This document shows, piece by piece, positions 469 through 30,328 of a stretch of DNA of 35,306 bases; the first letter of the stretch is position 1; each line of letters opens with the position of its first letter. The notes under the pieces are model-generated. The model was given only the letters and a program-made list of their open reading frames with translations. It did not search any database and was not told the origin of the DNA. The translations under genes were made by a program, and so were the position numbers. The stretch is from a virus: IMG/VR virus record IMGVR_UViG_3300027721_000041, positions 1 through 35,306 of that record; one strand, given 5' to 3'.

Positions 469-1647
469 ATGGCATACGATATATCAACATTAGACGCAAG
501 CAACATCTTATCCAACTCCTTTTTATCAGGAGGATATAATGTAGATGTAAGTGGAGGGACAACAATAGCTAAGGGCCTTGTCTATAAAGTAGGAACAGGA
601 GATCCTTCTCTTAATGACAATTCGGCAGAATATTTTTACGGGGATGACGGAGACTTTACATTAGGAATTTATTCTCTGGACCCAAGTGTTCAATATTCAT
701 TTAGAGCATTTCTTCTTTTTGAAGATCCCTCTCTTATAGTCTATGGAGATACTAAGACGGCAATAACCGCTCAGGAGACTGTTTATTATAGTCCTGTATG
801 CACAAATTGTTATTGGTTTAATAGGCTGATAGATGCCTCTGGATTAATTACAAAAATTAGAAAGGATGATAATAATCCTTGGCATTGCGCTGCATTTCCT
901 GAAAGCGAAGGATATAGTATTCCTGAAAATATTAAAACTGGGGACTTCGCCCATGATGTATCTATAGAGGACCAATATTTTGTTAATATCTTTGGAGAGG
1001 ATTACTATCCTATTTTTGCGGCTAATCCAGCTGCTGATATCATTCCTGTTACAAAAATTCTTAATCTCCCTGATTTTGAACAAGCTCCCGATGCTGCTGT
1101 TTGGGTTCCGAATGAAATTGACTTAAGCACTTATTGGGACAATATAGATGAAGGAGTTAAATATATTATGGTTCCCTCTATTAAGGAAGGAACTAATGTA
1201 ACTTTTGATTATCATATTACTGAGACTTCTGGAGGATATAGCTTAATTGATACAATTACTGTAAATGCTACAGGAACTTTAGGAGTTGCAAAAAGCTATG
1301 TTGATGCTTCTCTTGCTAAAAGGGATGTATCAATAGCCTGGTTAAATTCATATAGAGTTGTTCAGGACGTTTCTATTGCAGCAGCAGGAAATTTTAAACC
1401 TTATGTTGATGGATCTTTAGCAACAAGGGACGTATCTATAGCATGGAATACATCTAAAAATATTCAGCAAGATGCTTCCTTAAATAATACATTAGATGCG
1501 TCTCTATTATTTCAATCCATATTAACTCTCGAGACAAAAACTGGAACCTCTGCTGGAGTTCCCGGTCAATGGAGTTACGACGCATCATATTTTTATATCT
1601 GCACTTCAACAAATATTTGGAGAAGAACCTTAATGTCATCTTTCTAA
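469..1647 (+). CDS. Tail fibre protein rich in D-x-S motifs
   Basis: A 392-residue fibre-like protein. Residues about 275-350 carry fibre repeats of the form SYVDASLAKRDVSIAW and PYVDGSLATRDVSIAW, which resemble the YVD-type shaft segments of trimeric phage fibres. The C-terminus ends in a GQWSYDASYFYICTST motif that recurs at the ends of many phage fibre proteins. By hand count there are about 18 D-x-S tripeptides in 392 residues. The gene follows the tail-tip gene by 2 bases, and its stop overlaps the start of the lectin-like gene (TAATG), so the three are almost certainly co-expressed. Receptor binding or adhesion is inferred from architecture and position. I do not recognise a catalytic domain. 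Confidence 0.75.
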   Translation: MAYDISTLDASNILSNSFLSGGYNVDVSGGTTIAKGLVYKVGTGDPSLNDNSAEYFYGDDGDFTLGIYSLDPSVQYSFRAFLLFEDPSLIVYGDTKTAITAQETVYYSPVCTNCYWFNRLIDASGLITKIRKDDNNPWHCAAFPESEGYSIPENIKTGDFAHDVSIEDQYFVNIFGEDYYPIFAANPAADIIPVTKILNLPDFEQAPDAAVWVPNEIDLSTYWDNIDEGVKYIMVPSIKEGTNVTFDYHITETSGGYSLIDTITVNATGTLGVAKSYVDASLAKRDVSIAWLNSYRVVQDVSIAAAGNFKPYVDGSLATRDVSIAWNTSKNIQQDASLNNTLDASLLFQSILTLETKTGTSAGVPGQWSYDASYFYICTSTNIWRRTLMSSF

Positions 1648-2336
1648 TGGATACATATCTTACATATAACGGAGCATATCTTAATTTTAACAATAAAATG
1701 TTAATAGGATATAAATTTGAAGGGGTTGAATTTTTATTTGAAAATAATTTACAGGATACAGGGAATAGACAATTTGCTACTTGGTCTGGAACAGGCCCAA
1801 TTTATTCTGCAGGGAAAGTTAATCAATGTGTAAAATTTTATGCAGGAGATAGCAGAATGACATATGGAAATGATTATTTTATAGAATCCATAGATAAAAA
1901 TTTCTCCTTTAATTTTTGGATAAAGATGGATTCCTCAATTTATCCATCTTATTTTTTACAGGTTCCAGATTCAAGTTCAGACGCCGGTCTTTTAGGGCAG
2001 TTTGTAAATCCTCCTAATCCTGGAATAGGCTTTCTTATAAATAATAGCATTGCCCCATTTATTTATGCGGAGAACTATTTTGACGGAAACTGGCATATGA
2101 TTTCCTTTATAAATGATGCTGACTCATCTACCTATTATACATATTATGATAATGTATTAAATAGTCAGATGTCTTCAACAGCTGTAATTATAACTGATGC
2201 TTCTTTATTAAAAATAGGAAATGTCATTGGAGGACCTAATAGTAATGGCTTTTTCTTGGATCAATTCAGATATTATGCCAGAACAATAACAGCTAATGAT
2301 GTCAGCTCTTTATGGAATGGTGGTAGTGGAATTTAA
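1647..2336 (+). CDS. LamG/concanavalin A-like lectin-fold tail protein
   Basis: A 229-residue protein. The ATG at 1647 overlaps the TAA of the fibre gene, and I prefer it to an in-frame ATG at 1569 that would overlap the fibre by 79 bases. The pattern NFWIKMDSS, then NWHMISFINDADSS, then DQFRYYARTITANDVSSLWN is the signature of a laminin-G/concanavalin A-like jelly roll, with the usual C-terminal 'region-of-interest, Y-x-R-x-ls' strand. Such domains bind glycans, and here it probably decorates a fibre and contacts the host surface. It has a second relative at 22295-23116. It also carries DSS, DAS and DVS motifs like its neighbours. Confidence 0.75.
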   Translation: MDTYLTYNGAYLNFNNKMLIGYKFEGVEFLFENNLQDTGNRQFATWSGTGPIYSAGKVNQCVKFYAGDSRMTYGNDYFIESIDKNFSFNFWIKMDSSIYPSYFLQVPDSSSDAGLLGQFVNPPNPGIGFLINNSIAPFIYAENYFDGNWHMISFINDADSSTYYTYYDNVLNSQMSSTAVIITDASLLKIGNVIGGPNSNGFFLDQFRYYARTITANDVSSLWNGGSGI

Positions 2337-10394: not shown

Positions 10395-11027
10395 ATGAAA
10401 AACGAAAAATTTACCCGGGTCGAGAATGAGCTTCAGGATAAGGCCATGTTATTCCTTAAAGAAAGGGATGAAAGGGTCTTTAATAGCATATACAAAGACC
10501 TACAAGTCTATCTAAGAAGGTTCCTCTACAAGAAGTTTCCTAATTCAACAAAGGAGGATAAGATGTTTGCTATTGATGATACTATCATAGCTGTATGGAA
10601 AAACTTTGGGGACTATGATGAGAGCAAGTCATCTTTTAAAACTTGGACAACAACCATAGCTTTCCGAATGATGCTTGCCAGGCTAAGAGTAAGTTTAAGA
10701 AATAAGAGGGTAATCTCTTTCTCTTCCTTGACCCATGGGTCTGATGGACTTACAGAAGCTAATAATACTATTCAGAACCTAATTCTTGAACAGAAGGAAG
10801 AGGAAGTTCCCATATATAAACTAAAGGACTTTGAAGACGAAATAGGACAGCTCTCTCCAATATATAGAGAGGTCCTCTGGGATAAATATATCCTTAAGAA
10901 ATCCTATAAAGAAATGGAAGAAGAAACAGGAACAACTAAGAACACTCTTAAGACCCGAGCAAGACAGGGACTTATGAAAATAGCAAAAAACTATGGGGTT
11001 AATAAAAGTAGCTATAGAAGATTTTAA
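10395..11027 (+). CDS. ECF-type RNA polymerase sigma factor
   Basis: A 210-residue sigma factor. Region 2 spans about residues 28-105 (VFNSIYKDLQVYLRRFLYKK, then DDTIIAVWKNF, then FKTWTTTIAFRMMLARLR). Region 4 spans about 148-198 (LSPIYREVLWDKYILKKSYK, then EMEEETGTTKNTLKTRARQG). It should direct host core polymerase to phage promoters, most simply the TTTGTATTA sites. It sits between the two terminase genes, an unusual place that ties late transcription to the packaging operon. Its 3' end overlaps terL by 35 bases. Confidence 0.85.
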   Translation: MKNEKFTRVENELQDKAMLFLKERDERVFNSIYKDLQVYLRRFLYKKFPNSTKEDKMFAIDDTIIAVWKNFGDYDESKSSFKTWTTTIAFRMMLARLRVSLRNKRVISFSSLTHGSDGLTEANNTIQNLILEQKEEEVPIYKLKDFEDEIGQLSPIYREVLWDKYILKKSYKEMEEETGTTKNTLKTRARQGLMKIAKNYGVNKSSYRRF

Positions 11028-12321
11028 TCCTAAACAAGAGGAGATTGTCAAGGAGATATTAGGAACTTCCCCGAAAGAGACCAAGTATCATATTATCAGA
11101 GCTGCACGTCAGAGTGGAAAATCTTTTATCCTTGTTCGATTAGCTCCCATCTTTGCTCTAAGTGAAAAGGATCTAACTGTTGCATTTGTCAATGGACTTC
11201 ACAAACAGAACGAGAGGATATATAACGACATGATTAGGATTATTCCTGATGTTCTTATTTCTAAAGCTATAAATTCAGACAAGGGCAGAAGCATTACTTT
11301 TATAAATGGAAGCACAGTCCAGTTCTATACTGCAAGAAACTATGATGCAGTTGTAGGTGGAAGCTTTGATTACTTTATAGGAGACGAGGTTGCTATGTGG
11401 GCAGAGAGAGCTTGGGACTATATCCAACCAACTGTTGCTGCAAAGAAAAAGAGCAAGGTGGTCTTGGCCTCAACTCCAAGAGGAAGAAACCATTTCTATA
11501 GATTAAGTTCTGAAGCTAACACCTCTGACCCATTCAAGATAGAATATAGAATGTCCTATTTGGACAACCCTTTTTATGACTTAAGGGAAATAGAAGATGC
11601 TAAAAAGAATAGCACTGAATTTGTCTTTCGTCAGGAATATCTTGCTGAATTTGTCTTTGGGCGAGGAATGGTCTTTGGAGAGTTCTCCCATCTTCAGAAA
11701 GCGGAAGCATGGAATGACCCTCAATCTAAAAAGAGATACTTCTTTGGAATAGATATAGCAGGAGGTGGAGACGATGACACAGTTCTTACTATAATGGATG
11801 AAGAGGGAATCCCTGTCTATATATATGAAGCACAGGAGACACGCATTCCATCTCAGGCAGCAGAACTTGAAAGAGTTATTAAGAAATATGATGCAGAAGG
11901 ATTTGGAGAATGCAACGGTCTTGGACTTGGACTTGTAGAAGACCTACAGGATAGAGGATGTAAGATATCCAAATTCTGGATGAGCAACGAGAGCAAAGGA
12001 GACATAGTGGAGAACACTTTACGAGATATGGCAAACGGGTTCTGCACTTTCCCAACGGTTGACCTATGTTCTAAACTGGACAACCAGATGAGCACTTACG
12101 AGGTAAGCAGAACTCTAACAGGCAAACTCTCTTACGCCCACGGAAAAGGATTACATGATGATTATGTTGACAGTTATATGATAGCAAACTGGGCAAGATA
12201 TAAATTCTTATTTGGAGGTGGCAATGTTTGGGATCCAACTGAACAGAGGGACAAGAACCCTAATCCCTATCCAACAACAATAGATATGAGAAATTCAGAT
12301 TATTCAGACTTATATGCTTAA
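10993..12321 (+). CDS. terL: Terminase large subunit
   Basis: A 442-residue packaging motor. The ATPase has Walker A AARQSGKS (37-44) and Walker B YFIGDE (127-132) with catalytic Glu132, followed by the coupling motif LASTPRG (158-164). The RNase H-like nuclease has FGIDIAGGGDDDT (251-263, Asp254) and a C-terminal HDDYVDS (388-394) that supplies further metal-binding Asp residues. It pumps DNA into proheads and cuts the concatemer. The length is normal. It overlaps the sigma gene upstream and the putative tail chaperone downstream, which is odd because a portal usually follows; here the portal is 13.5 kb away. Confidence 0.97.
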   Translation: MGLIKVAIEDFNPKQEEIVKEILGTSPKETKYHIIRAARQSGKSFILVRLAPIFALSEKDLTVAFVNGLHKQNERIYNDMIRIIPDVLISKAINSDKGRSITFINGSTVQFYTARNYDAVVGGSFDYFIGDEVAMWAERAWDYIQPTVAAKKKSKVVLASTPRGRNHFYRLSSEANTSDPFKIEYRMSYLDNPFYDLREIEDAKKNSTEFVFRQEYLAEFVFGRGMVFGEFSHLQKAEAWNDPQSKKRYFFGIDIAGGGDDDTVLTIMDEEGIPVYIYEAQETRIPSQAAELERVIKKYDAEGFGECNGLGLGLVEDLQDRGCKISKFWMSNESKGDIVENTLRDMANGFCTFPTVDLCSKLDNQMSTYEVSRTLTGKLSYAHGKGLHDDYVDSYMIANWARYKFLFGGGNVWDPTEQRDKNPNPYPTTIDMRNSDYSDLYA

Positions 12322-13162
12322 CTTAATATACGGAAAGAGAAAGATACGAGTTCCTAACAGACTTGTTGAACTTCCTTTATACAAAGGCATTGAAATCTTT
12401 GACCACTTACAAAAGATAAAAGAACCTGGACTTCCTGACAAGATATCTATTATCTCTCTGGTATCAGGACTTGATGTAGATATCCTAATGGACTTCACTG
12501 AAGAGACTATAGAAGAGATATGGAGAAAGATGGAAATATCCAAAGATAACTTCACCTGCAACTATTTCTCTCTCTTCAGTCTGGATGGACAGCTATATGG
12601 TCTTAAGGATTTCAAGGACCTAACCGTTAGGGAATATGCGGATATAGAGTTCTATCTTTCTGAAGGAGATACACCATTTAGCAATATCCATAAAATCTTA
12701 GGAGTTCTCTTCAGACCCGTAGTCTATAAAAAAAGAACCCTCAAAAATGTATTAAAGAATATAATAATAGGATTATTCTATAGGAATGTTAAGCCTATTG
12801 ACTTAAAGGCCTATAGAATATCAGAATATAACGAGGCGGAAACAGCTGATGAAGAGTTCTTAAAGAGACTGGATTTCAGTTTTGGATATGGAGTTCTTTT
12901 AGCAGTAACGAAATATATTAATTCAATTAAGGAGAACTATCCTATCCTATTCAGAGAAAGGGAAACAGAGGAAGCAGAAGAGGGAGATAATAGATTCTTA
13001 GAGTTCGAAGAAATTTGGGGATTTTATCATCTTCTCCATTCTATAACTTCAGGAGTAATAGAACGAGATATCTGGTTAGGAAAGCCCATAAAAGAATTAA
13101 TGACTTATTTATCATACTTGAAACAAAAGAGTATTTACGACCGAAAGCATGGCAAAGGATGA
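12314..13162 (+). CDS. Putative tail assembly chaperone-type protein
   Basis: A 282-residue soluble protein sitting directly before the tape measure gene, where tail chaperones are normally found. A LKDFKDLTVREYADIEFYLS segment followed by NIHKILGVLFRPV (about residues 97-137) resembles a conserved block I associate with Bacteroidetes phage proteins at this position. It has no membrane helix. No programmed frameshift site was found by eye. The function is inferred mainly from synteny. It overlaps terL by 8 bases and the tape measure by 14. Confidence 0.5.
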   Translation: MLNLIYGKRKIRVPNRLVELPLYKGIEIFDHLQKIKEPGLPDKISIISLVSGLDVDILMDFTEETIEEIWRKMEISKDNFTCNYFSLFSLDGQLYGLKDFKDLTVREYADIEFYLSEGDTPFSNIHKILGVLFRPVVYKKRTLKNVLKNIIIGLFYRNVKPIDLKAYRISEYNEAETADEEFLKRLDFSFGYGVLLAVTKYINSIKENYPILFRERETEEAEEGDNRFLEFEEIWGFYHLLHSITSGVIERDIWLGKPIKELMTYLSYLKQKSIYDRKHGKG

Positions 13163-15212
13163 AGATGTAAATGTTAATCTTAAGACCAAAGGAGCTGACC
13201 AACTTGCAGAAGACCTTAAGAAATCTGAAGAGGCAGCTGCAGGATTGGCAGATGAATTTGGCTTAATGGACACTCAAGCGGGAAGAGTGTTTAAGACTGT
13301 AACCCAAGGAGCTCAAAAGGGAATTGCTGCAATGAAGACCTTAAGAGGAGCAGTTCTTGCAACAGGAATTGGCGCCTTGGCTATTGCAGTCCTTTCCCTT
13401 GTATCATATTTCACTAAGACAGAAGAAGGAGCTCAGAAGCTAAGAAAGGCTATGGCATTCCTTGGAGCTATCTTAGATAAAATTCGTGATGTATTTGTAG
13501 GATTGGGAAAGAGACTTACAGAGGTTAAGTTCTCTTTTGAATCTTTAGGGGATTTACTTAAGAAGGGATTCCAGGCTATTGTTCAGAATATAGTAAACCG
13601 ATTTGTTGCTCTCCTTGATATTGCAAAAGCTATTGGTAAACTATTTAAAGGAGATTTTAAAGAAGGCCTCAAAGACTTAGCTGATGGAACAATTAAGCTG
13701 ACCACAGGTATTGATGATATGTCCGGGAAGCTGGAAAAGGCCCGAGATAAATTTAAGGCATTCACTGCGGAAGTATCTGCAGCAGCAAAGGCAGCAGCAG
13801 ACTTAGCAGACAGGCAGAATAAACTTAAAGTCTCTCAAAGGGACTTCCTTGTTGAACAGGCCAAACTGGAAGTTCAACTATCCGAAGCCCGATTAAAGAC
13901 TAATGATGCTACACTCTCCACAGAGGAAAGAATAAAAGCTCTTAATGAAGCTCAGGCTATCCAGAACGAAATATCCAATGAACAGCTCAGACTTGCTAAA
14001 GAGGCCTATGAAATAAAGAAAGCTCAGAATGCTCTTGCGTCCTCAACTGAAGAGGACTTGGATGAAGAGGCAAATCTATTAGCAAATCTTATTAGAGTAG
14101 AGAAGGAGAGGAACGACAAGAGTAAGGAGTTCAGCGATCAGAGGTCAGCTCTTCAGAAAGCAGAAGCAGATAAAGTAGAAGCAGCAAGACTGAAAAAGGA
14201 AGCTGATGATGCTGAAACGGAAAAAAAGAATGAGGAATTAGCAGCAGCAGAAGTTGAAAGAGCAAGATCAGTCCTTGAAAAAATAACTGCACTTGAAGAG
14301 GAAGCTGCTAAGACCAAACAACAAAGGGAAGATGAGGCTTACTTAGCTGCTATAGAAAACGAAGAGGAGAGAGAAGCTGCCCGAATAGAACTGCAGGCTC
14401 AGAGAAGGGAAGAACAATTAGAACTTGAAGACGAACAGTTCGAAGAGGACTTAGCGAGAGCCCTTGAAAAGAAAGAGATAATGGAATCTGAAGTTCAAGG
14501 TGTTAGAGATGCCTATAATGAACTCAGATTAGAAAAGCAAGCAGATATAGATGCGCAAGAAGTTAAGGCTGAAGAAGAACTTGCTAAGAAGAGGCTGGAG
14601 ATGGAAAAGGTCGTCCAGCAACAAAAGATTGATGGAGCTCTTGCAGCTGCTGGAGCACTTATTGGAGCAAGCAAAGCTATCTTTGGAGATACAAAGGCCT
14701 CAGCTATTGCAGAGACTATTATATCCACTTATCAGTCTGCAACATCAGCATTCAAATCCTTAGCGGGCATTCCTATTGTAGGCCCTGCACTTGGAGCTAT
14801 TGCAGCTGCGGCAGCTGTTGCAGGAGGTATTGCAAACTTAGCGAAGATTAAAGGAAGCAACAAGAAAGAGACTGCACCTCCAAAGGACGTAGTTCTTCCT
14901 AACAAGAACCCATTCCAAGAGGGTGGATATATTACTGGTCTTCCTCATTCTCAAGGCGGAACAACTATTACAGCAGAGAGTGGAGAATATGTCTCATCAA
15001 GGCGAACGATGGCATCTGCATTTGGACCCGTTATAGAAACGTTAAATAAAATGGGAAATAGTGGAATGGCTGGAGGAAGCATGATATCAGAAGAACGTGT
15101 TGCTCAGATTGCTGCAGAAACCGTTAAGGCAGTTCCAGTCTATGTAGTTGAAACAAATATTACCAATAAACAGCGTGAAGTCTCTGTAAGGGAAAGCGCT
15201 TATGTAAAATAG
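13149..15212 (+). CDS. Tail tape measure protein
   Basis: A 687-residue protein. A membrane-like segment lies at about residues 67-88 (AVLATGIGALAIAVLSLVSY), a long Ala/Glu/Lys-rich coiled coil at about 200-500, and a second hydrophobic Ala/Gly block at about 540-570 (IVGPALGAIAAAAAVAGGIA). The C-terminal GGYITGLPHSQGGTTITAES motif is common in tape measures. It sets tail length and probably helps DNA entry. At roughly 0.15 nm per residue it predicts a tail near 100 nm, consistent with a siphovirus. It contains only about two D-x-S tripeptides, unlike the exposed tail proteins. Confidence 0.92.
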   Translation: MAKDEDVNVNLKTKGADQLAEDLKKSEEAAAGLADEFGLMDTQAGRVFKTVTQGAQKGIAAMKTLRGAVLATGIGALAIAVLSLVSYFTKTEEGAQKLRKAMAFLGAILDKIRDVFVGLGKRLTEVKFSFESLGDLLKKGFQAIVQNIVNRFVALLDIAKAIGKLFKGDFKEGLKDLADGTIKLTTGIDDMSGKLEKARDKFKAFTAEVSAAAKAAADLADRQNKLKVSQRDFLVEQAKLEVQLSEARLKTNDATLSTEERIKALNEAQAIQNEISNEQLRLAKEAYEIKKAQNALASSTEEDLDEEANLLANLIRVEKERNDKSKEFSDQRSALQKAEADKVEAARLKKEADDAETEKKNEELAAAEVERARSVLEKITALEEEAAKTKQQREDEAYLAAIENEEEREAARIELQAQRREEQLELEDEQFEEDLARALEKKEIMESEVQGVRDAYNELRLEKQADIDAQEVKAEEELAKKRLEMEKVVQQQKIDGALAAAGALIGASKAIFGDTKASAIAETIISTYQSATSAFKSLAGIPIVGPALGAIAAAAAVAGGIANLAKIKGSNKKETAPPKDVVLPNKNPFQEGGYITGLPHSQGGTTITAESGEYVSSRRTMASAFGPVIETLNKMGNSGMAGGSMISEERVAQIAAETVKAVPVYVVETNITNKQREVSVRESAYVK

Positions 15213-17286: not shown

Positions 17287-17704
17287 CCCATCTTTTTTTA
17301 GCAGATATACTCATCTTGGTCCTTGTCTCTAAGCTTTTAGGCTTTCCTTTTTGGGATTTGCTTCTATTTATAAATTTCTCCTCCTCCGTTTTATAGATAT
17401 ATTTCTGTCGTCCTTTTTTAGTAAATATCTGGTCCCTTTTAATATTTTTGGGAAACCTTATACGATATGAGCCAGTTCCCTTATCATATCTTCTGTGACA
17501 TAGAATACATAATTGTCTATAATTATTTACATCCGTGTCATAGACATGCCCATTAATATTGGCCCAGTGAAATATATCAGAAGTTCCTGGGCAATATTTG
17601 TTTTCGCAGTGGTTAGCTGGACCATAATATTTTCTTAGATGCTGATGACATCTATCATAATTGTTCTTAAAATCAGAGTCCTGCATTTTTTCTTTTGAAG
17701 TCAT
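17252..17704 (-). CDS. HNH homing endonuclease with NUMOD3 repeats
   Basis: A 150-residue free-standing homing endonuclease. The HNH part has Cys33, Cys38, FHWAN (45-49), NYRQLCILCHRRYDKG (61-76) with paired Cys and His70. The C-terminal basic SKSQKGKPKSLETRTKMSIS segment (115-134) plus AKKRW is the NUMOD3 DNA-binding motif. Such enzymes cut related phage genomes and copy themselves in by repair. It is the only minus-strand gene inside the late rightward block, as expected for a recent insertion. Its own promoter probably lies in 17705-17760. Confidence 0.9.
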   Translation of the reverse strand: MTSKEKMQDSDFKNNYDRCHQHLRKYYGPANHCENKYCPGTSDIFHWANINGHVYDTDVNNYRQLCILCHRRYDKGTGSYRIRFPKNIKRDQIFTKKGRQKYIYKTEEEKFINRSKSQKGKPKSLETRTKMSISAKKRWAIQNNHLYTSI

Positions 17705-17826: not shown

Positions 17827-18033
17827 ATGGCTGTAACAGTAAACCTTGTCCCTGACTGGTTTGGAGTAGGTCCACTTGAATCAACAGAAGCTGCAATTAA
17901 TGTTGCTCTTGCTGCTGTAGACGCTTCAATTCAGGCAGTTGTATCAGATCAAATTACAGTTGTTGACACATCTATGTATTTTACACCCGATGGATCTACA
18001 ACTCAGTATTCATGGGCCGTAACAGTTGTTTAA
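17827..18033 (+). CDS. Small virion-type protein (hypothetical)
   Basis: A 68-residue protein beginning MAVTVNLVPDWFGVGPLEST, with VDASIQ, VDTSMY and PDGSTT motifs that share the D-x-S pattern of the exposed virion proteins. It precedes the scaffold and capsid genes and lies directly behind a promoter motif, so strong late expression is likely. A small capsid decoration or connector protein is a guess from place and composition. No family recognised. Confidence 0.55.
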   Translation: MAVTVNLVPDWFGVGPLESTEAAINVALAAVDASIQAVVSDQITVVDTSMYFTPDGSTTQYSWAVTVV

Positions 18034-18771: not shown

Positions 18772-19713
18772 ATGGCAACAAACTTTAACGTATCGGCTTT
18801 AGCAGACTTCACAGCTGCTAACCCACAAAAAGCTCTCGAGTTAATGATCTTGACTGGTAAAGGACTTAAGGATTATTTTGATATTGAAACCGGTGTCAAG
18901 TATCGCACCAAGATTCCCTACATCACCAATGTAGACCTGGACATCTCTACAGGCGCAATCGCTGGTTACAATACTGGATCCGGAAGCACCACTATCACAG
19001 AGGTCGTTCTTGAAGACGCTCAATTGAAAATCTTCGAAACCTACACCAAAGAAGCTCTCAACAAAACTATGATGGCTTTCCTTGGAACAAGAGGCACTGA
19101 TCCTGCAGAACTTCCTGCAGAGGAAATGATTCTCGCTCTCAAACAGAAGAAACTATTCTATGATGTAGAATATCTTCTATGGCAGGATGCATCTGCTAAA
19201 ATTCCTAACGGTGGAGTTCTAAAGCAGATAACCGATGCTTCAACCTATACAGCATTAGGTCTTGCAGATACAGCTTTCACAAGCATGGCTGATGCTTCTA
19301 TTCTTCAGTGGGTAAATGCAGTTGCTACCAAGCAGCAGGCTTCTTTCCCTGAATACACAATGGAAGAAACTATCCTTGCAATGTCTCCATCTAACTTAGC
19401 TGCTTACGGTAGAGCACTCTACAATCTTAACGGAACCATCACAATGGAAACCGTTGGAGCAGACGGAAAAGGAATGCAAGAGATTTATATCCCTGGCACA
19501 ATGATTAAGGCAGTTGCAATGGTTGGACTAAATGGTTCTAACGAACTTGTTTGGACAAACCCAACTAACATCATAGAGGTCGTTGACCTTGTAGATGAGA
19601 CTGACTTCCTATCATTCCAATACAACCCTTACGCAAGATGGCATGAGCTTGCAGCTCAGTTCAAACTTGGTGTAAAAGTTGCAGATGTAACGAAGGTCAT
19701 CAAGACTAACTAA
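18772..19713 (+). CDS. Major capsid protein
   Basis: A 313-residue protein directly after the scaffold. It has an N-terminal helix (LADFTAANPQKALELMILTG), a beta-rich middle and an HK97-like ending (VVDLVDETDFLSFQYNPYAR, then ELAAQFKLGVKVADVTKVI) common in Bacteroidetes phage capsid proteins. Codons here are visibly richer in C-ending forms (atc, acc, ttc) than in neighbouring genes, consistent with very high expression. A strong intrinsic terminator follows 8 bases after the stop. No Shine-Dalgarno sequence is present; the leader is ATTAATTTAACCCGAA. Four D-x-S tripeptides occur, a mild excess. Confidence 0.85.
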   Translation: MATNFNVSALADFTAANPQKALELMILTGKGLKDYFDIETGVKYRTKIPYITNVDLDISTGAIAGYNTGSGSTTITEVVLEDAQLKIFETYTKEALNKTMMAFLGTRGTDPAELPAEEMILALKQKKLFYDVEYLLWQDASAKIPNGGVLKQITDASTYTALGLADTAFTSMADASILQWVNAVATKQQASFPEYTMEETILAMSPSNLAAYGRALYNLNGTITMETVGADGKGMQEIYIPGTMIKAVAMVGLNGSNELVWTNPTNIIEVVDLVDETDFLSFQYNPYARWHELAAQFKLGVKVADVTKVIKTN

Positions 19714-19777: not shown

Positions 19778-20299
19778 ATGGGAGTATTACAAACCATTCC
19801 AAGAGATTCCGTAAAAGGATTTAATGGGCTATGCTATGTTCTTTTGGCTAATTATGGAGATGTTACCATCTCTATCGATGCATCTAACAATACAACTTTT
19901 ACTGACGGTGATGTCTCAGTTGGAAATGCTTTCGTTAAATTCGAAATGACCAAAGAGACTTCTAATTATACTGTTACTGGAACTGGAACTCCTACAGCAG
20001 GATCTTATTCTTATAACCATGTTCTTACCCTTGTATTTGCAAGGAATGAAGCTCTCAAGGTTAATCAAGTTAAGATTATGGCTGACAAGGAACTTATTGC
20101 AGTTGCAGTCGACAGAAATGGAGAAGCATGGTGTTTAGGAAACGATTCCTGCTCAGCTCTCGACCTCACTTCAAGCGTTGGAACATCTGGCACAGCAGGA
20201 GCAGACCTTGCAGGTCAAACTCTTACTCTCGCCGGTAATTTCTCCGGTCCAGAAAGTTATGTTAATGCAGCACAATTAGCCGCAATTACACCTGCTTAA
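19778..20299 (+). CDS. Probable major tail tube protein
   Basis: A 173-residue beta-rich protein (alternating strands such as GDVTISIDASNNTTFTDGDV, LTLVFARNEALKVNQVKIMA) following the capsid gene. The size and fold pattern suit a siphovirus tail tube subunit, although a capsid decoration protein is possible. The leader is A-rich (CCAAAAAAACTAAAACAAA) with no Shine-Dalgarno sequence, a strong initiation context in Bacteroidota. It is bracketed by terminators on both sides, so its mRNA may be a separate or read-through unit of high abundance. Confidence 0.55.
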   Translation: MGVLQTIPRDSVKGFNGLCYVLLANYGDVTISIDASNNTTFTDGDVSVGNAFVKFEMTKETSNYTVTGTGTPTAGSYSYNHVLTLVFARNEALKVNQVKIMADKELIAVAVDRNGEAWCLGNDSCSALDLTSSVGTSGTAGADLAGQTLTLAGNFSGPESYVNAAQLAAITPA

Positions 20300-20447: not shown

Positions 20448-22298
20448 ATGATAAATTTATATCAGGCAAGGACCAACACCATCACTATTTATGACCTATA
20501 TTCTAAGGTCACGATTCCTGATGCATCACTTCACTACCTCTTTAATTTTAGGGACTTCTATAATAGTGATGTAAATGCTGTTCTTATAGACAGGTCTTCC
20601 TATCCAGATAGATATAGCACTTTTTATTTCACAGATGGGTCAGATGGCACACTCAGAGCCTCAGGTGAATATAACATATATGAAAGCCCGATAGATAGCA
20701 GCACAATCGATGCTTCTATTATGAACCTCCTGGAAAATGGGCAATACACCTTTGTTAAGGAAACGGATTCTGATGTCTATTATGACCCATCTCTTTTTGA
20801 CTATAAAGGATACGATGTTGTATTCGATCCTCTCTTCAGCACGGGAACAGGTTCTGTTACCTCTTTCCCTCATGATGATTTGACTGATAGAAATTCCAAG
20901 AGTAATCACCCTTGGGCATTGGCAGAAGCTTCCTTAGGATCTCAGTTCTACTGGCAAGATGGTTCTTTATATGTAACTGATACTTCTGGTGGAGGTGGTG
21001 GAGACTATGATGCTTCAATAGCTGACCTATGGAGCTATAATGCAATTCAGGATGCTTCTATATTAGCCCTTGAAGCTTCTATAGGAACCAGCATGGACTA
21101 TCCTTATGTTGATGGAAGCTTAGCTGCACGAGACGCTTCAATAGATGCTCTATTCTTATTAGCAGAAACTCAAGACCCAAGCATTCCTTATTTATATGAT
21201 TATACTCTGGACCTTTCAACAAGGATTGATAATATAGGTCCAGGAACTCAAGATGCTTCAATAGCTGACCTATATAATATAACCGAAGACCTCTCAACAA
21301 GAATAGATGGAATACCTACAGATGTCTATACTATATCTCAGGTGGATTCCAGCTTTGCTCTAAAGACAGAAATCCCTACAGACTTCTACAGTCAGGCTTA
21401 TGTGGATGGAAGCTTAAATGCTAAGCAAGATATTATTCCTGATGGAACTTTCGTTAAGGAAGCTTCTTTAGGAGCTCAGTTCTACTGGCAAGATGGTTCA
21501 CTATTCGTTACAGATGTATCTGGAGTTACTCCGGACGTGACGAAAAGTTATGTTGATGGGAGCTTAGGACTTCGTGATACTTCAATAGCTTATCTTGATG
21601 TCTATGTAACAGATTTAAGCACTTATGTCTATACACATACTCACTCCCAGGACGCTTCTATTGCAGACCTTTATCAGGAGATAGCAGATATTCCTCAGGA
21701 CCCAAGCATCTCTGACCTATATGATACTAAGGCTGATAAAACAGAAATCCCTACAGACTTCTATAGTCAGGCTTATGTTGACGGGTCTTTAGCAACAAGA
21801 GATAGTTCCATAGCAACAAATACTTCAGCTATTTCTATAAATTCTACTTCTATATCTGATGTCTCTACAAGGACCTATATTTTGGAACAGATAGATGCTT
21901 CAGCAAGAATATATCAAAATACTTTAGACATAGCAGAAGTAAGTTCGAATATTCCTACAGACTTCTATAGTCAGGCTTATGTTGATGGAAGCTTAAATGC
22001 TAAGCAGGACTTAATTCCTGACGGGACTTTCCTTAAGGAGGCTTCAATAGGTTCAGGACTTGAATGGAATGCTGGGGCTTTGGACGTATCTATTGATATG
22101 GTTACATCTTTAGTTGAACTAACCGATGTAAGTATTTCATCTATAGCAACTAATGATATTCTTCAATATGACCCATCAGGTTCTTCACCTAATAAATGGA
22201 GAAACCAACCTCCAGCTGATGCAACCCAATGGTTCTATACTAAAGACGAGATAGATTCTATGCTACTACAAATAATAGGAGGAACATACGGTTCATGA
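20448..22298 (+). CDS. Large tail fibre protein with repeated D-x-S shaft modules
   Basis: A 616-residue fibre. Repeated modules include TDFYSQAYVDGSLNAKQD (three near-identical copies), SLGSQFYWQDGSLYV / SLGAQFYWQDGSLFV (two), and many QDASIADLY / RDTSIAYLD units. By hand count there are about 33 D-x-S tripeptides. The repeating YVDGSL shaft resembles trimeric fibre segments, and a GGGGGD hinge lies near residue 185. The C-terminus contains a Trp-rich segment (NKWRNQPPADATQWFYTKDE). It probably forms a side fibre and binds the host surface. The stop overlaps the lectin gene start (ATGA). Its shaft units also resemble those of the fibre at 469-1647. Confidence 0.8.
   Translation: MINLYQARTNTITIYDLYSKVTIPDASLHYLFNFRDFYNSDVNAVLIDRSSYPDRYSTFYFTDGSDGTLRASGEYNIYESPIDSSTIDASIMNLLENGQYTFVKETDSDVYYDPSLFDYKGYDVVFDPLFSTGTGSVTSFPHDDLTDRNSKSNHPWALAEASLGSQFYWQDGSLYVTDTSGGGGGDYDASIADLWSYNAIQDASILALEASIGTSMDYPYVDGSLAARDASIDALFLLAETQDPSIPYLYDYTLDLSTRIDNIGPGTQDASIADLYNITEDLSTRIDGIPTDVYTISQVDSSFALKTEIPTDFYSQAYVDGSLNAKQDIIPDGTFVKEASLGAQFYWQDGSLFVTDVSGVTPDVTKSYVDGSLGLRDTSIAYLDVYVTDLSTYVYTHTHSQDASIADLYQEIADIPQDPSISDLYDTKADKTEIPTDFYSQAYVDGSLATRDSSIATNTSAISINSTSISDVSTRTYILEQIDASARIYQNTLDIAEVSSNIPTDFYSQAYVDGSLNAKQDLIPDGTFLKEASIGSGLEWNAGALDVSIDMVTSLVELTDVSISSIATNDILQYDPSGSSPNKWRNQPPADATQWFYTKDEIDSMLLQIIGGTYGS
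21366..22060 (+). repeat. Three DNA-level copies of a fibre shaft module
   Basis: Near-identical DNA segments of about 50-100 bases start at about 21366, 21741 and 21951 and encode the same TDFYSQAYVDGSL unit. The first and third also share NAKQD-IPDGTF and KEAS downstream. A related pair encoding FYWQDGSL lies near 20940 and 21478. Such repeats allow recombination to shorten or lengthen the fibre. Confidence 0.8.
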
Positions 22299-23116
22299 AC
22301 GAGATTCTAAAATATGATGCAAGCATACTAAAGTATGAGACAGAAATCCTAACCTATTTAGGAGATAATGGGATTCCTGTTACAGGACTTTTAGGCTATT
22401 ATAAATTTGATGAACTCTTTGGAGCAACCTCAGCAGAAGATTCTTGGGACGATAACGATTTAGTAAGTGTCTATGGCCAACAAGCAAGCAATGGAAAGAA
22501 TATACGATGTTATTATCCAAGAGCAGGAATAGGTTCAGGCCTTCCTACTATAGCATATTCAGCTGACCCATCTGTTTATAATTTTGGGCTATCCGATGCA
22601 TGGACTATTAGCACCTGGATAAAGAGAGTTCAGAAAGGAGCTCTTGATGATAACTTCTTAATGGGAAAATGCGAAACCTCTTATATTGAAGGTGATGATA
22701 AATATGGGATTACATTAGGATGGTATGTCTTTCTTGACCTTAACAAACCTGCTGTAGTAATTATAAATTCAACAGGAGCTATAGTTGCTGTAAAAGAAAT
22801 AGATACAGTTCCTCTTTCAGCCTGGACACATTTAGTATTTACCTATAGTGGTTCAGGTTCTTCAAGCGGACTAAATATCTATCTTAATGCAGATGATTCG
22901 AGTGTCTCTAAATATGATGAACCATTGGCCCCAACAGGAGATACAAGGTCAGATAAGGTTTTTACTATAGGCTTTACAGATATAACAGATAACTATCCTG
23001 CAGAAACAAATCCCCTTAATGCCTATATTGACGAGACTGCAATATATAATAGGGTCATATCAGGAGCAGAAGTAGCTTTTATATACAATAATGGAATTGG
23101 ACGATTTTTAAAATAA
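22295..23116 (+). CDS. LamG/concanavalin A-like lectin-fold protein
   Basis: A 273-residue protein. A short N-terminal segment of repeats (KYDASILKYETEIL) links it to the fibre. A jelly-roll domain from about residue 30 follows, with WTISTWIKRV, then AWTHLVFTYSGSG, GLNIYLNADDSSV, and the final IDETAIYNRVISGAEVAFIY strand. This is the typical Laminin_G_3 layout. Glycan binding on the host surface is the expected role. It is a relative of the protein at 1647-2336, each sitting just after a D-x-S fibre gene, so fibre plus lectin pairs are duplicated. Start codon overlaps the fibre stop (ATGA). Confidence 0.8.
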   Translation: MNEILKYDASILKYETEILTYLGDNGIPVTGLLGYYKFDELFGATSAEDSWDDNDLVSVYGQQASNGKNIRCYYPRAGIGSGLPTIAYSADPSVYNFGLSDAWTISTWIKRVQKGALDDNFLMGKCETSYIEGDDKYGITLGWYVFLDLNKPAVVIINSTGAIVAVKEIDTVPLSAWTHLVFTYSGSGSSSGLNIYLNADDSSVSKYDEPLAPTGDTRSDKVFTIGFTDITDNYPAETNPLNAYIDETAIYNRVISGAEVAFIYNNGIGRFLK

Positions 23117-23124
23117 TAAGGGAT

Positions 23125-24462
23125 ATGCCTAATCAGATAATATTAAAATATGGAACTTCAGATCCTTCAGGATTGATACTTCTTGCAGAACCTGCAGTAG
23201 ACGTCTCTACAAAGATACTCTATGTTGGAACAGACGCTTCAGGAGCTGTCATGAGTATTTCTAATGATGAACTTCAAGTTCTTGCAGCTGATACAGGAGA
23301 TGGTCTTGTATGGAATCCTGAAACAGGACTTCTTGATGTAAGTGTAGCAACAGTTACATCTCTGGAAGCACTAACTGATGTAAGTGTTGTTGAAGTAAGT
23401 ATTGGTGATGTCTTAGCATATTCAGAAGCTGGATGGACGAATACAGGAATATCTACAGGGGAACTTATAGATGTTCAGGATGGAAGCCTATTGGATATTC
23501 AAGACGCTGTATTAGTGGATATTGATGCAAGTTTAGCAGCTAAAGTAGATTCAGTTGTTTATGTAGGGAATAGCTATTTTAAGATCCTTAATAACGAAAC
23601 CGATGGAGCATCTATTAGATATTATGATGACATGGGTCCTGAAGAAATTAGATGGAGTTTTACTGGAGGTGGAAATGCGGGAATAATTATAGATTCCTCA
23701 AATAATGGAAAGGTCTTAGAAATGTTTGCTGGGTCAGCAATACAGGCCTATCAAAGAATACAATATAATGAGGATAAATCAGGATCCTATGATGAAAGAA
23801 CACTTATAGATAAAGGATATGCAGATGGAGCTTATCTCCAAAAATCTTCTTCCGATGGTCTAACAGTTGTAGATGGTTCTATAGTCTTTGGAGACTATGC
23901 TAACGGAAACTACCTTGAAATATATTCTGATGGAACTATCAGGGCTCATGGGGCTGCAACAGGATACGATGACTTATTCGTTCCTCTCGTTCAGGGAAAA
24001 CAGGGTTCAACGTCATTACCTAATTTCGATTATGATGAGGTTGCTTATATGTTCCCACAAAATGATCCTGATGAAATACTATATTTCCAGGTTCAACTTC
24101 CTCACAGATGGAAAGAAGGTAGCAGACTATATCCTCACGTTCACTATAGACAAGCAGATGCTTCAACAGCTCCAACTTACAAATTGGACTATAAAATAGC
24201 AAGCATAGGAGGTTCCTTTAATAATGCTTGGCAGACCTATACAATGGACACTTCAGTAGCTGCATGGATAGATTCTTCGACACATCAGCTTAACAGAGGA
24301 GATGGAGGAGTGGATGCTTCAACATATACAAAATCAGCAATAATTCTATGTAAACTATATAGAGATGATAATACTGTAACAGGAGACGTTCCGACCTACC
24401 AATTTGACATACATTTTGAGGTTGATGGGCTTGGAAGCGAAACTGAATTTACTAAAATATAA
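23125..24462 (+). CDS. Tail fibre / receptor-binding protein
   Basis: A 445-residue protein. The N-terminus MPNQIILKYGTSDPSGLILL followed by AVDVSTKILYVGTDASG is a module seen at the start of many fibre proteins of aquatic and gut phages. The middle is shaft-like with DVSV, DGSL and DASL units. The C-terminal 165 residues (LYFQVQLPHRWKEGSRLYPH, then VHYRQADAS) match a recurring receptor-binding-type domain with a characteristic LPHxWKEGSxLxPHVH motif. The paired His could bind metal, but I cannot show it. It lies 8 bases after the lectin gene in the fibre operon. Confidence 0.75.
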   Translation: MPNQIILKYGTSDPSGLILLAEPAVDVSTKILYVGTDASGAVMSISNDELQVLAADTGDGLVWNPETGLLDVSVATVTSLEALTDVSVVEVSIGDVLAYSEAGWTNTGISTGELIDVQDGSLLDIQDAVLVDIDASLAAKVDSVVYVGNSYFKILNNETDGASIRYYDDMGPEEIRWSFTGGGNAGIIIDSSNNGKVLEMFAGSAIQAYQRIQYNEDKSGSYDERTLIDKGYADGAYLQKSSSDGLTVVDGSIVFGDYANGNYLEIYSDGTIRAHGAATGYDDLFVPLVQGKQGSTSLPNFDYDEVAYMFPQNDPDEILYFQVQLPHRWKEGSRLYPHVHYRQADASTAPTYKLDYKIASIGGSFNNAWQTYTMDTSVAAWIDSSTHQLNRGDGGVDASTYTKSAIILCKLYRDDNTVTGDVPTYQFDIHFEVDGLGSETEFTKI

Positions 24463-24475
24463 ATAATTTGATAAA

Positions 24476-25804
24476 ATGAGCAGCATAATTAAAGTAGGAA
24501 ACCAAATCGTTGTAGTTGATAATAAGCTACTTAGCGTTGATGTTAGCACATCCCCAACTCCAACTCCATCAACAGAACCAGTTCAAGGAGACTTTAAAGT
24601 AGGAGGACATACTATAACTTTGGCTACAGGAGGCAATGCTTCATATGCACAAATAGCATTTCCTTCAGAAAGCAAAGTAGCTATTCCATTTAGAGCGACG
24701 AGGGATTCAAGCACTTATTTCTATTCCCTAACTGATTTAGATGGCAATTTTGTTGCTGAGCCTGAAATGCCAGCAGCAGGCACAGTAATTTCAGATTGGG
24801 TTTGGGTCTCAGAAAATGATCCTATAATTGCTTATAACGTTTTTGCAGCGAGCGGAAATATTTCAAGATCTTCAATTCCTTGGACAGGATCCTTTGGGAC
24901 CTCATCGGGATATAACTATATGCCTACGAGCATTGCATATGATTCGACAAATGATAGAATATACGTTGGAGGCTATTTCCATACCTATGGAGGCTTAGCA
25001 GCAAGAAGACTTGTCTGTATTGATGGAACAGATGGAAGCACTTATGCAGCCTTTGATACAACTTCTGGCTTTACAGCAGCTACCAGCTCTTATGTCACTG
25101 GACTATTTATTATAAGTGACCTCGGTGGGACTGGAGAAAACCTTATTGCTATAGGAAGAAGTTTAACAACATATGGAGGACTAACTATTCCATCTAATAT
25201 CTGCGCTATTACTACAGCTGATGGCTCTCTTAATGGAACATTTAGCACTGCTATTGGAACAGGAACAGGAGCATCTTCTGATACAATCTATTGCGGATAT
25301 CAGGATGTGACTGGTAAAAATCTATACTTAGCTATGAGCACTACTTCTTTCGGAGGTAGTCAGTTCAATAAAATATGCAGAATAAATACGGAAATAGGGG
25401 TTCTTGATACAGACTGGGTTCCAGCTAATGACGGCTCTGTATTTGTAGTGTCAACGCAATCTCAGATCATTCAGGACCCGTGGACAGCTGGAAATATAAT
25501 TGTTGTAGGAACCACTTGGGATAATTCATTTACTATATCAAAAGCTGATGGAACTGCAACTTCTCTTTCAGCTGCTTATGATCAGCAAGGAGGACTTATA
25601 GGAGACCATTTTAAAAGCGCATCATCTCTATATAGATTTAAACCAAGCGCTGATGCGACTAAAATATATGTAGCAGGGAACTTCTATTCAACAGATGATT
25701 ATCACTATTATAATCAGAGAGCAAGATTAAGCATTGACGCTCAGAACTCTATAATAGAGAATGATTCTAACGTTGCAGATAGTAGCATATTGCTTCCATC
25801 ATAA
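24476..25804 (+). CDS. Fibre-associated beta-propeller-like protein (delta-60-type repeats)
   Basis: A 442-residue protein. A Pro/Thr linker (TSPTPTPSTEP, about residues 25-36) separates a short N-terminal anchor from the body. The body repeats RIYVGGYFHTYGGLAARRLV / NLIAIGRSLTTYGG / KIYVAGNFYST, the look of delta-60 (DUF5122) repeats that build beta-propellers ('v-GG-F-ty-g---ri-rln-dGs-d--f'). Propellers often mediate binding to surface polymers. D-x-S motifs are again frequent (DVST, DSST, DGST, DSSI). Last gene of the fibre cluster; the portal gene follows after 35 bases with no terminator seen. Confidence 0.65.
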   Translation: MSSIIKVGNQIVVVDNKLLSVDVSTSPTPTPSTEPVQGDFKVGGHTITLATGGNASYAQIAFPSESKVAIPFRATRDSSTYFYSLTDLDGNFVAEPEMPAAGTVISDWVWVSENDPIIAYNVFAASGNISRSSIPWTGSFGTSSGYNYMPTSIAYDSTNDRIYVGGYFHTYGGLAARRLVCIDGTDGSTYAAFDTTSGFTAATSSYVTGLFIISDLGGTGENLIAIGRSLTTYGGLTIPSNICAITTADGSLNGTFSTAIGTGTGASSDTIYCGYQDVTGKNLYLAMSTTSFGGSQFNKICRINTEIGVLDTDWVPANDGSVFVVSTQSQIIQDPWTAGNIIVVGTTWDNSFTISKADGTATSLSAAYDQQGGLIGDHFKSASSLYRFKPSADATKIYVAGNFYSTDDYHYYNQRARLSIDAQNSIIENDSNVADSSILLPS

Positions 25805-25839: not shown

Positions 25840-27213
25840 ATGGAAGAGCAAAAACCAATCATAGCATATACGAATTTTGAATTTGCTGAACTCAACCCTA
25901 AAGAGAGCGCACCTGTCTTTACAGAGGTTAGGGGCAAAGACTGGATTCCTTATCTCTCTTCAGATGGTAATTCCCAATATCCAGAAAAGCTTATAGAGCT
26001 ATTTACTAATAGCGCTCTTCATGGAGCTATCCTGAGGTCTAAGATAGACCAAGTATCAGGAAATGGATTTATATGGGATGCTTCAGAAGGCTCAGATGAG
26101 ATGGACACTTTCATGTCTGCAGTAAATGACCAGGAAGATGCTAACGAGGTCCTATGGAAATTAAGTAATGACCTAAATCTATTTGGAGGTGTAGCTCTTC
26201 TTATAAACTGGTCTAAGGACTGGACTAAGATAGTCTCTATAGAACATATAGATTTCTCCAAAGTCAGATGCTCAACAGTAGATGACAATGGAAAAATTTC
26301 AGGATATTACTATTCATGGGACTGGTCAAAACAGAGAAATGATAGGGTCTTTATTCCCGCCTTCAACGAGGCAACTGCATCAGAAAATAAGCAGGCCTAT
26401 GAAGATGCTGTAAAGAAGGGAAATAGCGAAGAACTTCAGAAGATATTCTTACAGCCAACAACACAGATATTCTATTACAAACCCTATATCAGTGGATATT
26501 TCTATTATCCTCTTCCAAGTTATGTAGGATGTATCAACTCTATTGAGACTGATATTATGTCTGACCAATATGGAACTTCAGCATTTAAGAATGGTCTTAA
26601 TACTGATGTGATGGTTACTTTCTTCAATATCAGAACTCCTGAAGCTAAGAACGAAGAGGCAAGAAAATTCCTTAAGATGCACACAGGAGCAGCTCAGGCT
26701 AAGAAACCTCTTATTGCTTTTGCTGATGATGCAACTCAGGCTCCTAAGGTAGATAATATAGGTGGTTCAAAAGAGGACAAACTCTTTATGACTATCAACG
26801 AGAACACTATGCAGAAAATTCTTTCAGGACATAGAGTTACAGACCCAGTTCTTGTAGGGATTAAAACTCCAGGAGAATTAGGAAATAGTGATTTAGGACT
26901 TGCAATAGATTTCTGGAACAAGACCGTTATAAATCCTATGCAGCAGACTGTTACAAAGATATGGAACAAGTTTATGGATATAAATGAATTTCCAAGTGTA
27001 GATATTGCTCCTTTCATATTTACAGATGAAGTAGTAGAACCAGAAGAAGAGACTGATGTTGCTGATACAGATGCTGATGCAGGAGCTCCTGTAGAAATGG
27101 ACCGTATGAAAAAGGGAGTAGGAAGAGATGGAATTATAAGGAAATATCATACTGTCTCAACCCGCAAGAATATCAGCAAGAAGCTTAAAGAAAAGAAACT
27201 TAAAACCGAATAA
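25840..27213 (+). CDS. Portal protein
   Basis: A 457-residue portal. The N-terminal ALHGAILRSKIDQVSGNGF segment (about residues 58-76), the LFGGVALLINW strand, the SIEHIDFSKVR block and the later SDQYGTSAFKNG and ISGHRVTDP-like (LSGHRVTDPVLVG) segments match portal proteins of Bacteroidetes siphoviruses. It forms the dodecameric ring at the head vertex through which DNA passes. The C-terminal tail is basic (KNISKKLKEKKLKTE) after an acidic stretch. It lies after the fibre cluster, far from terL and the capsid gene, an unusual order. The next gene begins two bases after its stop. Confidence 0.88.
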   Translation: MEEQKPIIAYTNFEFAELNPKESAPVFTEVRGKDWIPYLSSDGNSQYPEKLIELFTNSALHGAILRSKIDQVSGNGFIWDASEGSDEMDTFMSAVNDQEDANEVLWKLSNDLNLFGGVALLINWSKDWTKIVSIEHIDFSKVRCSTVDDNGKISGYYYSWDWSKQRNDRVFIPAFNEATASENKQAYEDAVKKGNSEELQKIFLQPTTQIFYYKPYISGYFYYPLPSYVGCINSIETDIMSDQYGTSAFKNGLNTDVMVTFFNIRTPEAKNEEARKFLKMHTGAAQAKKPLIAFADDATQAPKVDNIGGSKEDKLFMTINENTMQKILSGHRVTDPVLVGIKTPGELGNSDLGLAIDFWNKTVINPMQQTVTKIWNKFMDINEFPSVDIAPFIFTDEVVEPEEETDVADTDADAGAPVEMDRMKKGVGRDGIIRKYHTVSTRKNISKKLKEKKLKTE

Positions 27214-29199: not shown

Positions 29200-30327
29200 A
29201 TGGCAATAGCAATTCTGTCTGCTCCTGATTATATCCAGCCGGTTTATTCTGTTCAGGAATGGCAATTATATGATGCAAGTAATTACGCCCAAGCAGGTTT
29301 TTATTATCAGCTTACTGTAACTATAGGGGCAGAAACCAGAACACTTCAGGTAAAGAAGGACGAGAACAATAAAGCAACTTTTGATGTTCAGGCAATTCTG
29401 CAACCTTTCCTTGTAGCAACTTTTGCAGCTGAAGATTCTTCTATGGTTCATAGCTTCCCAGATATAGTTCTTGACTATTCTGTTGTGGCAAAGAGTGTAT
29501 GGGATGCTGGAGATAGCACTTCAAGCTCTGTAGCTAAGAAGGCCTTTTATGGTGTAGACCAATTCAATAGAACTTGGGACGCTTCACTATATGAGTTCAG
29601 GACAGATTCATCAGGCCTATTCCTAACCTCTAATCATACTGAAAGAGATATTCACTATGGAGACGTGGTTCATCTTAACATGCTATATGGAAAGAGTAAT
29701 GGAATAGATAGTTCTTTTAATGGACTTGCAATAACGAGATATCAAGCTTCGGGAGACACCAGCACTTTTATATATGACTGGACGGTTGGACCTGCAGATG
29801 TAAGCATATTGTCTATAAATTTAGATCCTGCTATAATTAACGATGAGGCCTCAACTAATTTTATTGATGGAAGCACTCTCTATTTCACTGTAGCAGAAAA
29901 GACAGGACTAAGCGAGACTATCAGGATTAATATTCTTCTCCTTAAAGAAAAATACGATAGATATTACAGGATACAATATATAGACAGTCTTGGAAACACA
30001 GAGGCCTATAATTTTGACCTTGTTCCCGAGAATGATATAGCTATTTCTAAAACGGAATATATAGCTAATAGGCAATATAAAGCTTTTGGAACTAAAGTAG
30101 AAAATACTTATCTTGTAAGAACGGACTGGATGTGTGAAGATAAATCAGCAGCTCTAAAAGACCTTTGGTATTCCCCCAAAGCCTCTCTTGTCGAAACTGA
30201 CTTGACACAAAATGATATAATACTTTTGGAGACAGGGAAAAAGATTGCAAATAGACACAATGTTCCACAAATCAGCTATGACCTCAAATGGAAATATGCT
30301 GACGAATTTATAGTTCAATTCCAGTAG
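29200..30327 (+). CDS. Tail/baseplate protein
   Basis: A 375-residue beta-rich protein immediately before the tail-tip gene. Short D-x-S motifs are numerous (DASN, DSSM, DASL, DSSG, DSSF, DTST, DVSI, DGST). Repeated strand patterns (YYRIQYIDSLGNTEAYNF; KKIANRHNVPQISYDLKWKY) resemble baseplate or distal-tail proteins that precede the hub in Bacteroidetes siphoviruses. Position argues for a distal tail or baseplate ring component. No enzyme motif. It starts the last rightward operon behind terminator and promoter motif, and the next ATG follows after one base. Confidence 0.6.
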   Translation: MAIAILSAPDYIQPVYSVQEWQLYDASNYAQAGFYYQLTVTIGAETRTLQVKKDENNKATFDVQAILQPFLVATFAAEDSSMVHSFPDIVLDYSVVAKSVWDAGDSTSSSVAKKAFYGVDQFNRTWDASLYEFRTDSSGLFLTSNHTERDIHYGDVVHLNMLYGKSNGIDSSFNGLAITRYQASGDTSTFIYDWTVGPADVSILSINLDPAIINDEASTNFIDGSTLYFTVAEKTGLSETIRINILLLKEKYDRYYRIQYIDSLGNTEAYNFDLVPENDIAISKTEYIANRQYKAFGTKVENTYLVRTDWMCEDKSAALKDLWYSPKASLVETDLTQNDIILLETGKKIANRHNVPQISYDLKWKYADEFIVQFQ

Positions 30328-30328
30328 A

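Follow-up and report, generated by a model that had tools for sequence, protein, structure and literature searches.

A serine-specific D-[small]-S motif concentrated in the virion proteins of a probable Bacteroidota phage and of unrelated phage lineages

Motif-rich genes of the window

The window analysed here is the whole of the virus record IMGVR_UViG_3300027721_000041 from IMG/VR (35,306 nucleotides). Its genes for fibre-like, lectin-like, propeller-like, tail-tip and head proteins carry many copies of the tripeptide D-x-S (Asp, any residue, Ser), which is the subject of this analysis (Table 1). An earlier note on this DNA had pointed to the excess, and its counts for the 616- and 392-amino-acid (aa) proteins, the terminase large subunit (TerL) and the tape measure, like the single D-x-S in each of a sigma-like protein and a 282-aa protein, proved exact. 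When each protein was shuffled at constant composition, which supplies the expected values throughout, the excess turned out to be real and larger than had been stated.

Eleven virion or virion-like open reading frames (ORFs) of the window together contain 129 D-x-S against 40.9 expected (z 14.7), and the maximum in 5000 shuffles was 62; since these ORFs were chosen partly as carriers, the comparisons between phages are the cleaner tests. Among all residue pairs at spacings of 1 to 7, D-x-S ranks first in these ORFs and the runner-up has z 4.9. With x restricted to small residues (A, V, G, T, S, P or C), the signal sharpens to 110 against 18 expected (z 21; next best 4.6), and across the motif-rich phages the enrichment in outer proteins is mostly six- to eight-fold. 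The remaining ORFs of the window show no excess (21 D-x-S against 23 expected), and these counts support the suggestion that the motif is confined to virion-surface proteins. Its supposed restriction to positions 20448-25804, or to tails, did not hold, as 469-2336, 29200-35305 and the putative major capsid protein (MCP) carry it as well.

Table 1. Features of the window with observed motif counts (expected counts in brackets)
Feature	Position	Strand	D-x-S	D-[small]-S	Remarks
Repeat of 126 bases at both window ends	24-149, 35181-35306				Tail gene 30329 runs across
392-aa fibre-like protein	469..1647	+	18 (3.3; maximum 9 in 1000 shuffles)	15 (1.5)	Tail-protein PHROG match at C-terminus
229-aa LamG-like lectin protein	1647..2336	+		5 (0.6)	PF13385
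SEC-C motif protein	7205-7837
TerL	10993..12321	+	1 (2.2)		Internal control
Tape measure	13149..15212	+	2 (1.9)	0	Internal control
ORF with HNH-endonuclease-like Cys/His pattern	17252-17704	-			Within plus-strand structural block
68-aa protein	17827..18033	+		3 (0.3)	Head region
Probable MCP	18772..19713	+	4	3 (0.3)	By position and G018 homologue; no match in a database family search
173-aa protein after MCP	19778..20299	+		2 (0.4)	Not significant alone
616-aa fibre-like protein	20448..22298	+	33 (9.3; maximum 18 in 1000 shuffles)	29 (4.1)	Densest carrier; no Pfam family
273-aa LamG/ConA-like lectin protein	22295..23116	+	4 (2.0)	3 (0.8)	PF13385, E 4.6e-16
445-aa fibre-like protein	23125..24462	+	14	13 (1.8)
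442-aa propeller-like protein	24476..25804	+	7 (3.7)	6 (2.0)	DUF5122 just under cut-off
Portal	25840..27213	+	3 (2.3)	1 (0.9)	Internal control
375-aa protein	29200..30327	+	10	8 (1.0)	Just upstream of tail-fibre gene
Tail-tip/fibre protein, at least 1659 aa	30329..35305	+	29	23 (5.2)	Crosses genome ends

Definition of the motif and codon use

D-x-S as first proposed is only partly the right description: its excess is genuine, and it disappears when x is bulky or charged. In 54 enriched ORFs of the window and of contigs related to it, small residues occupy x at 87% of the sites against a background of 44%, while charged, aromatic, amide or Met residues account for 6% against 40%. Accordingly, D-[AVGTSPC]-S occurs 1093 times against 141 expected (7.8-fold) and D-[bulky/charged]-S 74 times against 128. 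Proline at x is enriched about 10-fold (D-P-S, 93 against 9). Threonine is not enriched at the third position (D-[small]-T, 99 against 126, 0.79-fold); D-[small]-C reaches 13 against 5 and E-[small]-S 106 against 55, and no rival residue pair comes near D-x-S. The position after Ser favours I and L: the coil-type D-x-S-[I/L] has the greatest excess of any sub-class (602 against 53), and the motif before other residues is still in excess (658 against 269).

An artefact of DNA or composition, such as a repeat tract, codon bias or richness in Asp and Ser, would be the simplest source of such counts, and the motif-rich proteins are indeed somewhat enriched in Asp and Ser. This explanation is refuted by the composition-matched shuffles and by neutral codon use, and we give it a negligible probability. 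Ser codons inside the motif do not clearly differ from other Ser codons (p 0.05), AGY and TCN being used as elsewhere, nor do Asp codons differ (p 0.63); moreover, 252 distinct 9-mers are found among 1260 motif sites of the window and related phages. Motif codons are thus the same as those of Asp and Ser at large, and it is the peptide that is under selection, as the earlier note had supposed from the varied codons.

Distribution among phages

A degenerate pattern for YVDGSLA-x-RD-x-SI gave 20 stretches in 19 viral contigs, whose full sequences have whole-contig D-x-S ratios of up to 3.0 (G010, G012 and G016 are weak); altogether, the signature was found in about 20 metagenomic phage contigs. 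This pattern contains the motif, so other anchors were added. One was a tail module selected independently of the motif; it led to 80 loci, of which the three closest (L082-L084) alone stand out and most others have ratios near 1. With the refined motif, L100 and L101 reach 2.5-2.8. A terminase anchor gave another 80 loci, with 366 D-x-S against 267 expected in the 18 closest and 1093 against 1053 in the 62 distant ones. The Dehalococcoidia match L029 was discarded as a chance match.

The motif-bearing phages fall into at least three groups with unrelated structural genes: the window with G018; lineage II (G003, G005-7, G009-11, G016, L082-84); and lineage III (G001, G002, G004, G014, G017). 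The only widely shared non-structural gene that crosses the lineages belongs to a GIY-YIG homing endonuclease-like cluster; most of the contigs are fragments, however, and little weight can be put on a gene that is missing from them. A search for phages closely related to the window through its MCP, fibre and tail proteins found none; the best TerL match reached only 29%. A comparable excess is absent from phages B40-8, BF503P1, crAss001, phi38:1, P12024S and cr10_1, from Tenacibaculum pT24, Chryseobacterium MA9V-2 and Flavobacterium MaF61, and from Salinibacter phages and a lemur-gut phage, so that the motif is no general trait of Bacteroides, crAss-like, Flavobacteriia or Salinibacter phages. 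No such phage motif was found in the open-access literature, subscription papers lying outside the search.

The Lak megaphages, tied by clustered regularly interspaced short palindromic repeats (CRISPR) to Prevotella (PMC8346664), were found by way of a baseplate-like protein that shares 44% identity with its lineage III counterpart. Lak-A1 and Lak-B1 (L267, L268; MK250016, MK250020) show the excess in three large proteins each when TAG is read as Gln, and only with this reading is the motif fully visible. There are 30 sites against 6.5 in Lak-A1 and 35 against 7.0 in Lak-B1; the highest totals in 3000 shuffles were 17 and 18, and D-x-S once more leads all residue pairs in the rich proteins. 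The motif in these proteins of the sampled region (e.g., 12 against 2.0 expected) is that of the window, and Thr is likewise unused; unlike the window, x is mostly S or T and the density is lower (2.7-fold over the region, 4.7-5.0-fold in the rich proteins).

Carriers among the virion proteins

Coil-type fibres are the densest carriers in the window (65 against 17 expected), and fibre modules are shared among contigs, so that the motif could be taken for a by-product of fibre-shaft repeats and of modules swapped among these phages. A phase of shaft repeats explains part of the signal. It does not explain the non-coil virion proteins of the window, with 64 D-x-S against 24 (P about 1.7e-11), and 126 of the 129 window sites have distinct sequence contexts. 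The earlier claim that the motif extends beyond coiled shafts thus stands for these proteins as a group, while the lectin and the propeller, its original examples, are only weakly enriched when taken alone. Near the terminase anchor, the lineage II phages show 50 D-x-S against 24 in capsid proteins (PHROG 617) and 45 against 19 in tail-tube proteins (PHROG 1407). The neutral use of AGY and TCN Ser codons in the motif also speaks against swapped repeats. Simple coil periodicity was likewise rejected as a source: the heptad pattern DASIA-x-LDASI hardly occurs at all (a single contig, without excess). The shaft explanation is therefore largely refuted, and we consider it very improbable.

The enrichment is selective within the particle. 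Portals of the same lineage II phages are depleted (15 against 28) despite the enrichment of other head proteins, and tape measures show no excess. TerL has 60 against 45 in near and 247 against 166 in distant relatives, i.e., no lineage-specific excess.

Comparison with homologues in related phages points in the same direction. A tail protein of about 650 aa occurs in both motif-rich and motif-poor phages: in most rich phages it carries 10-14 sites where about 4 are expected (G010 and G016, both weak contigs, have 7-8), and in poor phages 2-6 where 4-5 are expected. Copies that are 50-55% identical have 8 of 10-11 sites in common; at about 30% identity, few sites coincide while the density is kept, which suggests selection on the number of sites more than on their position.

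A conserved count with shifting positions, together with the virion-wide density, would also suit selection for avidity. A host surface protein, glycan or matrix might bind exposed D-x-S non-covalently, density being selected for adhesion. It is not evident what sites on the capsid and tail tube would contribute to receptor binding, and the exclusion of Thr and of bulky x would demand a very selective receptor, for which no partner is known; we regard this multivalent binding as improbable.

The Asn variant and a structural alternative

In some phages, N-[small]-S is enriched as well (observed/expected: G018, 20/4.4; G004, 40/11.5; G005, 29/7.8; G017, 41/17), whereas N-[small]-T is near chance or weakly up (0.85-1.9) and N-[bulky]-S is below chance. 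The virion-like ORFs for this test had been selected for D-[small]-S, a choice that introduces no direct bias into the N counts. The window lacks this excess although its nearest relative, G018, has one. Such a variant resembles what an enzyme with a variable preference at position -2 might leave behind.

The main rival explanation is structural: D/N-[small]-S may be an Asx-turn or helix-cap favoured for capping strands and coils, with a Ser that is never modified. D or N at -2 suits Asx-turn geometry, the coil-type D-x-S-[I/L] is the strongest sub-class, and the sites lie mainly in turns or at the ends of strands in a tail-protein model, which is weak (predicted local distance difference test, pLDDT, 51) and has no PDB match below 1e-3; the AlphaFold model of the window MCP has pLDDT 31. 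Turns, however, normally take Thr, and D-[small]-T is only 0.79-fold and N-[small]-T near chance in most phages checked. The motif is missing from homologues that share this architecture in other phages; it runs across unrelated proteins of one genome and follows the phage lineage, not the fold. For these reasons we hold the structural explanation to be unlikely, less so than the adhesive one. If it were correct, a lineage-specific turn motif across unrelated virion proteins would itself need explanation.

Comparison with known modification systems

The general O-glycosylation sequon of Bacteroidota is D-(S/T)-(L/I/V/T/A/S/M), the only known exception to motif-free bacterial O-glycosylation (PMC12871550). 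The two motifs are alike in their Asp-dependent Ser, in small or hydrophobic neighbours, in the rare tolerance of E for D and in the phylum. They differ in that Asp stands here at -2 instead of -1, Thr is excluded, and the carriers are virion parts and not exported host proteins. The canonical D[ST][AILMTV] is depleted in the rich ORFs (130 against 244), so the connection with this sequon that had been considered is refuted for the present motif.

N-linked sequons (N-x-S/T; D/E-x-N-x-S/T) are also triplets with fixed positions 1 and 3, and some phages here use N-[small]-S; in contrast to them, Asp dominates over Asn, Thr is unused and Pro at x is enriched. In mycobacteriophages, according to the portion of PMC12619734 that cites Freeman et al. 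2023, virion glycosylation targets capsid and tail-tube subunits, with glycans at the C-termini. On that account, the surface proteins of highest abundance are glycosylated there and are motif carriers here, while the sites in our phages are internal, many per protein and follow a sharply defined pattern, and no glycosyltransferase was recognised among the window proteins scanned. A calcium-binding motif, another suggested meaning, is unsupported: D-x-D (149 against 271) and D-x-N (143 against 228) are below expectation in the rich ORFs, which does not fit DxDxDG-type repeats.

A putative serine-directed sequon

The restriction to Ser, the limited choice of x, the spread over unrelated proteins, the absence from homologues elsewhere and the dependence on phage lineage together suggest something acting in trans. 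We propose that D-[small]-S is the recognition motif of a Ser-modifying enzyme, probably encoded by the host, and give this an even chance of being correct. Of the meanings listed in the earlier note, a modification sequon suits the motif's specificity and its recurrence in unrelated phages best, if not one of the D-S/T-x type. The enzyme would read the motif on virion surface proteins and may come from a subset of Bacteroidota hosts or be a phage protein that has escaped recognition. It would modify Ser, O-glycosylation being the most plausible chemistry; that the attached group is a sugar is a plausible hypothesis. Phages of such hosts would have repeatedly gained many sites on exposed proteins (capsid, tail tube, fibres, lectins and tip), resulting in a virion with a dense coat of modified Ser.

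Several points weigh against this proposal. Virion proteins are made in the cytoplasm. The O-glycosylation known from Bacteroidota has noncytoplasmic proteins as its substrates (PMC12871550), and the proposal therefore needs an enzyme that works in the cytoplasm. The D/N-x-S pattern also fits an Asx-turn. No glycosyltransferase was recognised among the scanned window proteins, and no enzyme common to the motif-bearing lineages was found among the gene clusters present in many contigs, which are mostly fragments. The fuller version of the proposal is more tentative, and we place it somewhat below an even chance: some Bacteroidota may possess a new cytoplasmic Ser-specific system with a [D/N]-[small]-S sequon, and unrelated phages of these hosts, from 35 kb to the 540-kb Lak, would have convergently spread its sites over their virions.

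Among bacteria, O-modification systems with a sharp sequon are rare. If the proposal is correct, a second, Ser-only sequon would be readable from phage genomes alone and would point to an undiscovered enzyme; the motif could be used as a barcode by which phages of particular Bacteroidota hosts are recognised, and virion-wide coating might be common in some uncultivated phages.

Host, sugar genes and other features

The host of the window phage probably belongs to Bacteroidota. This is indicated by tail homology to Bacteroides phages (residues about 925-1064 of the tail-tip/fibre protein are homologous to their tail fibres), by A/T-rich start regions with few Shine-Dalgarno-like sequences, as read by eye, and by the kinship of lineage III to Lak and Tenacibaculum phages. 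A Cloacimonadota host was considered and rejected: the metagenome-assembled genome (MAG) that holds a motif-rich contig has no excess in 20 of its other contigs (82 against 73), and 98 other genomes sampled from the phylum gave no convincing relative. The contig itself, L070 (MWCN01000127.1), is a phage contig with a Fib_succ_major domain binned in a Cloacimonetes MAG, and the binning may be wrong.

Glycosyltransferase genes do occur in three other contigs. G017 (IMGVR_UViG_3300050015_000917) has at about 68485-76699 a cassette with GT25, a GT10 fucosyltransferase, other sugar genes and methyltransferases, which adjoins a motif-rich ORF (76744-77364; 7 D-x-S against 1.2 expected). The presence of such a cassette in one large motif-rich phage would be in keeping with the proposed glycosylation. 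G008 and G019 have GT2 genes.

The end repeat of the window, with the tail gene running across it, indicates that the record probably represents a genome that is circular and close to complete. The window also encodes a SEC-C motif protein, and the minus-strand ORF with the HNH-like pattern may be a homing endonuclease.

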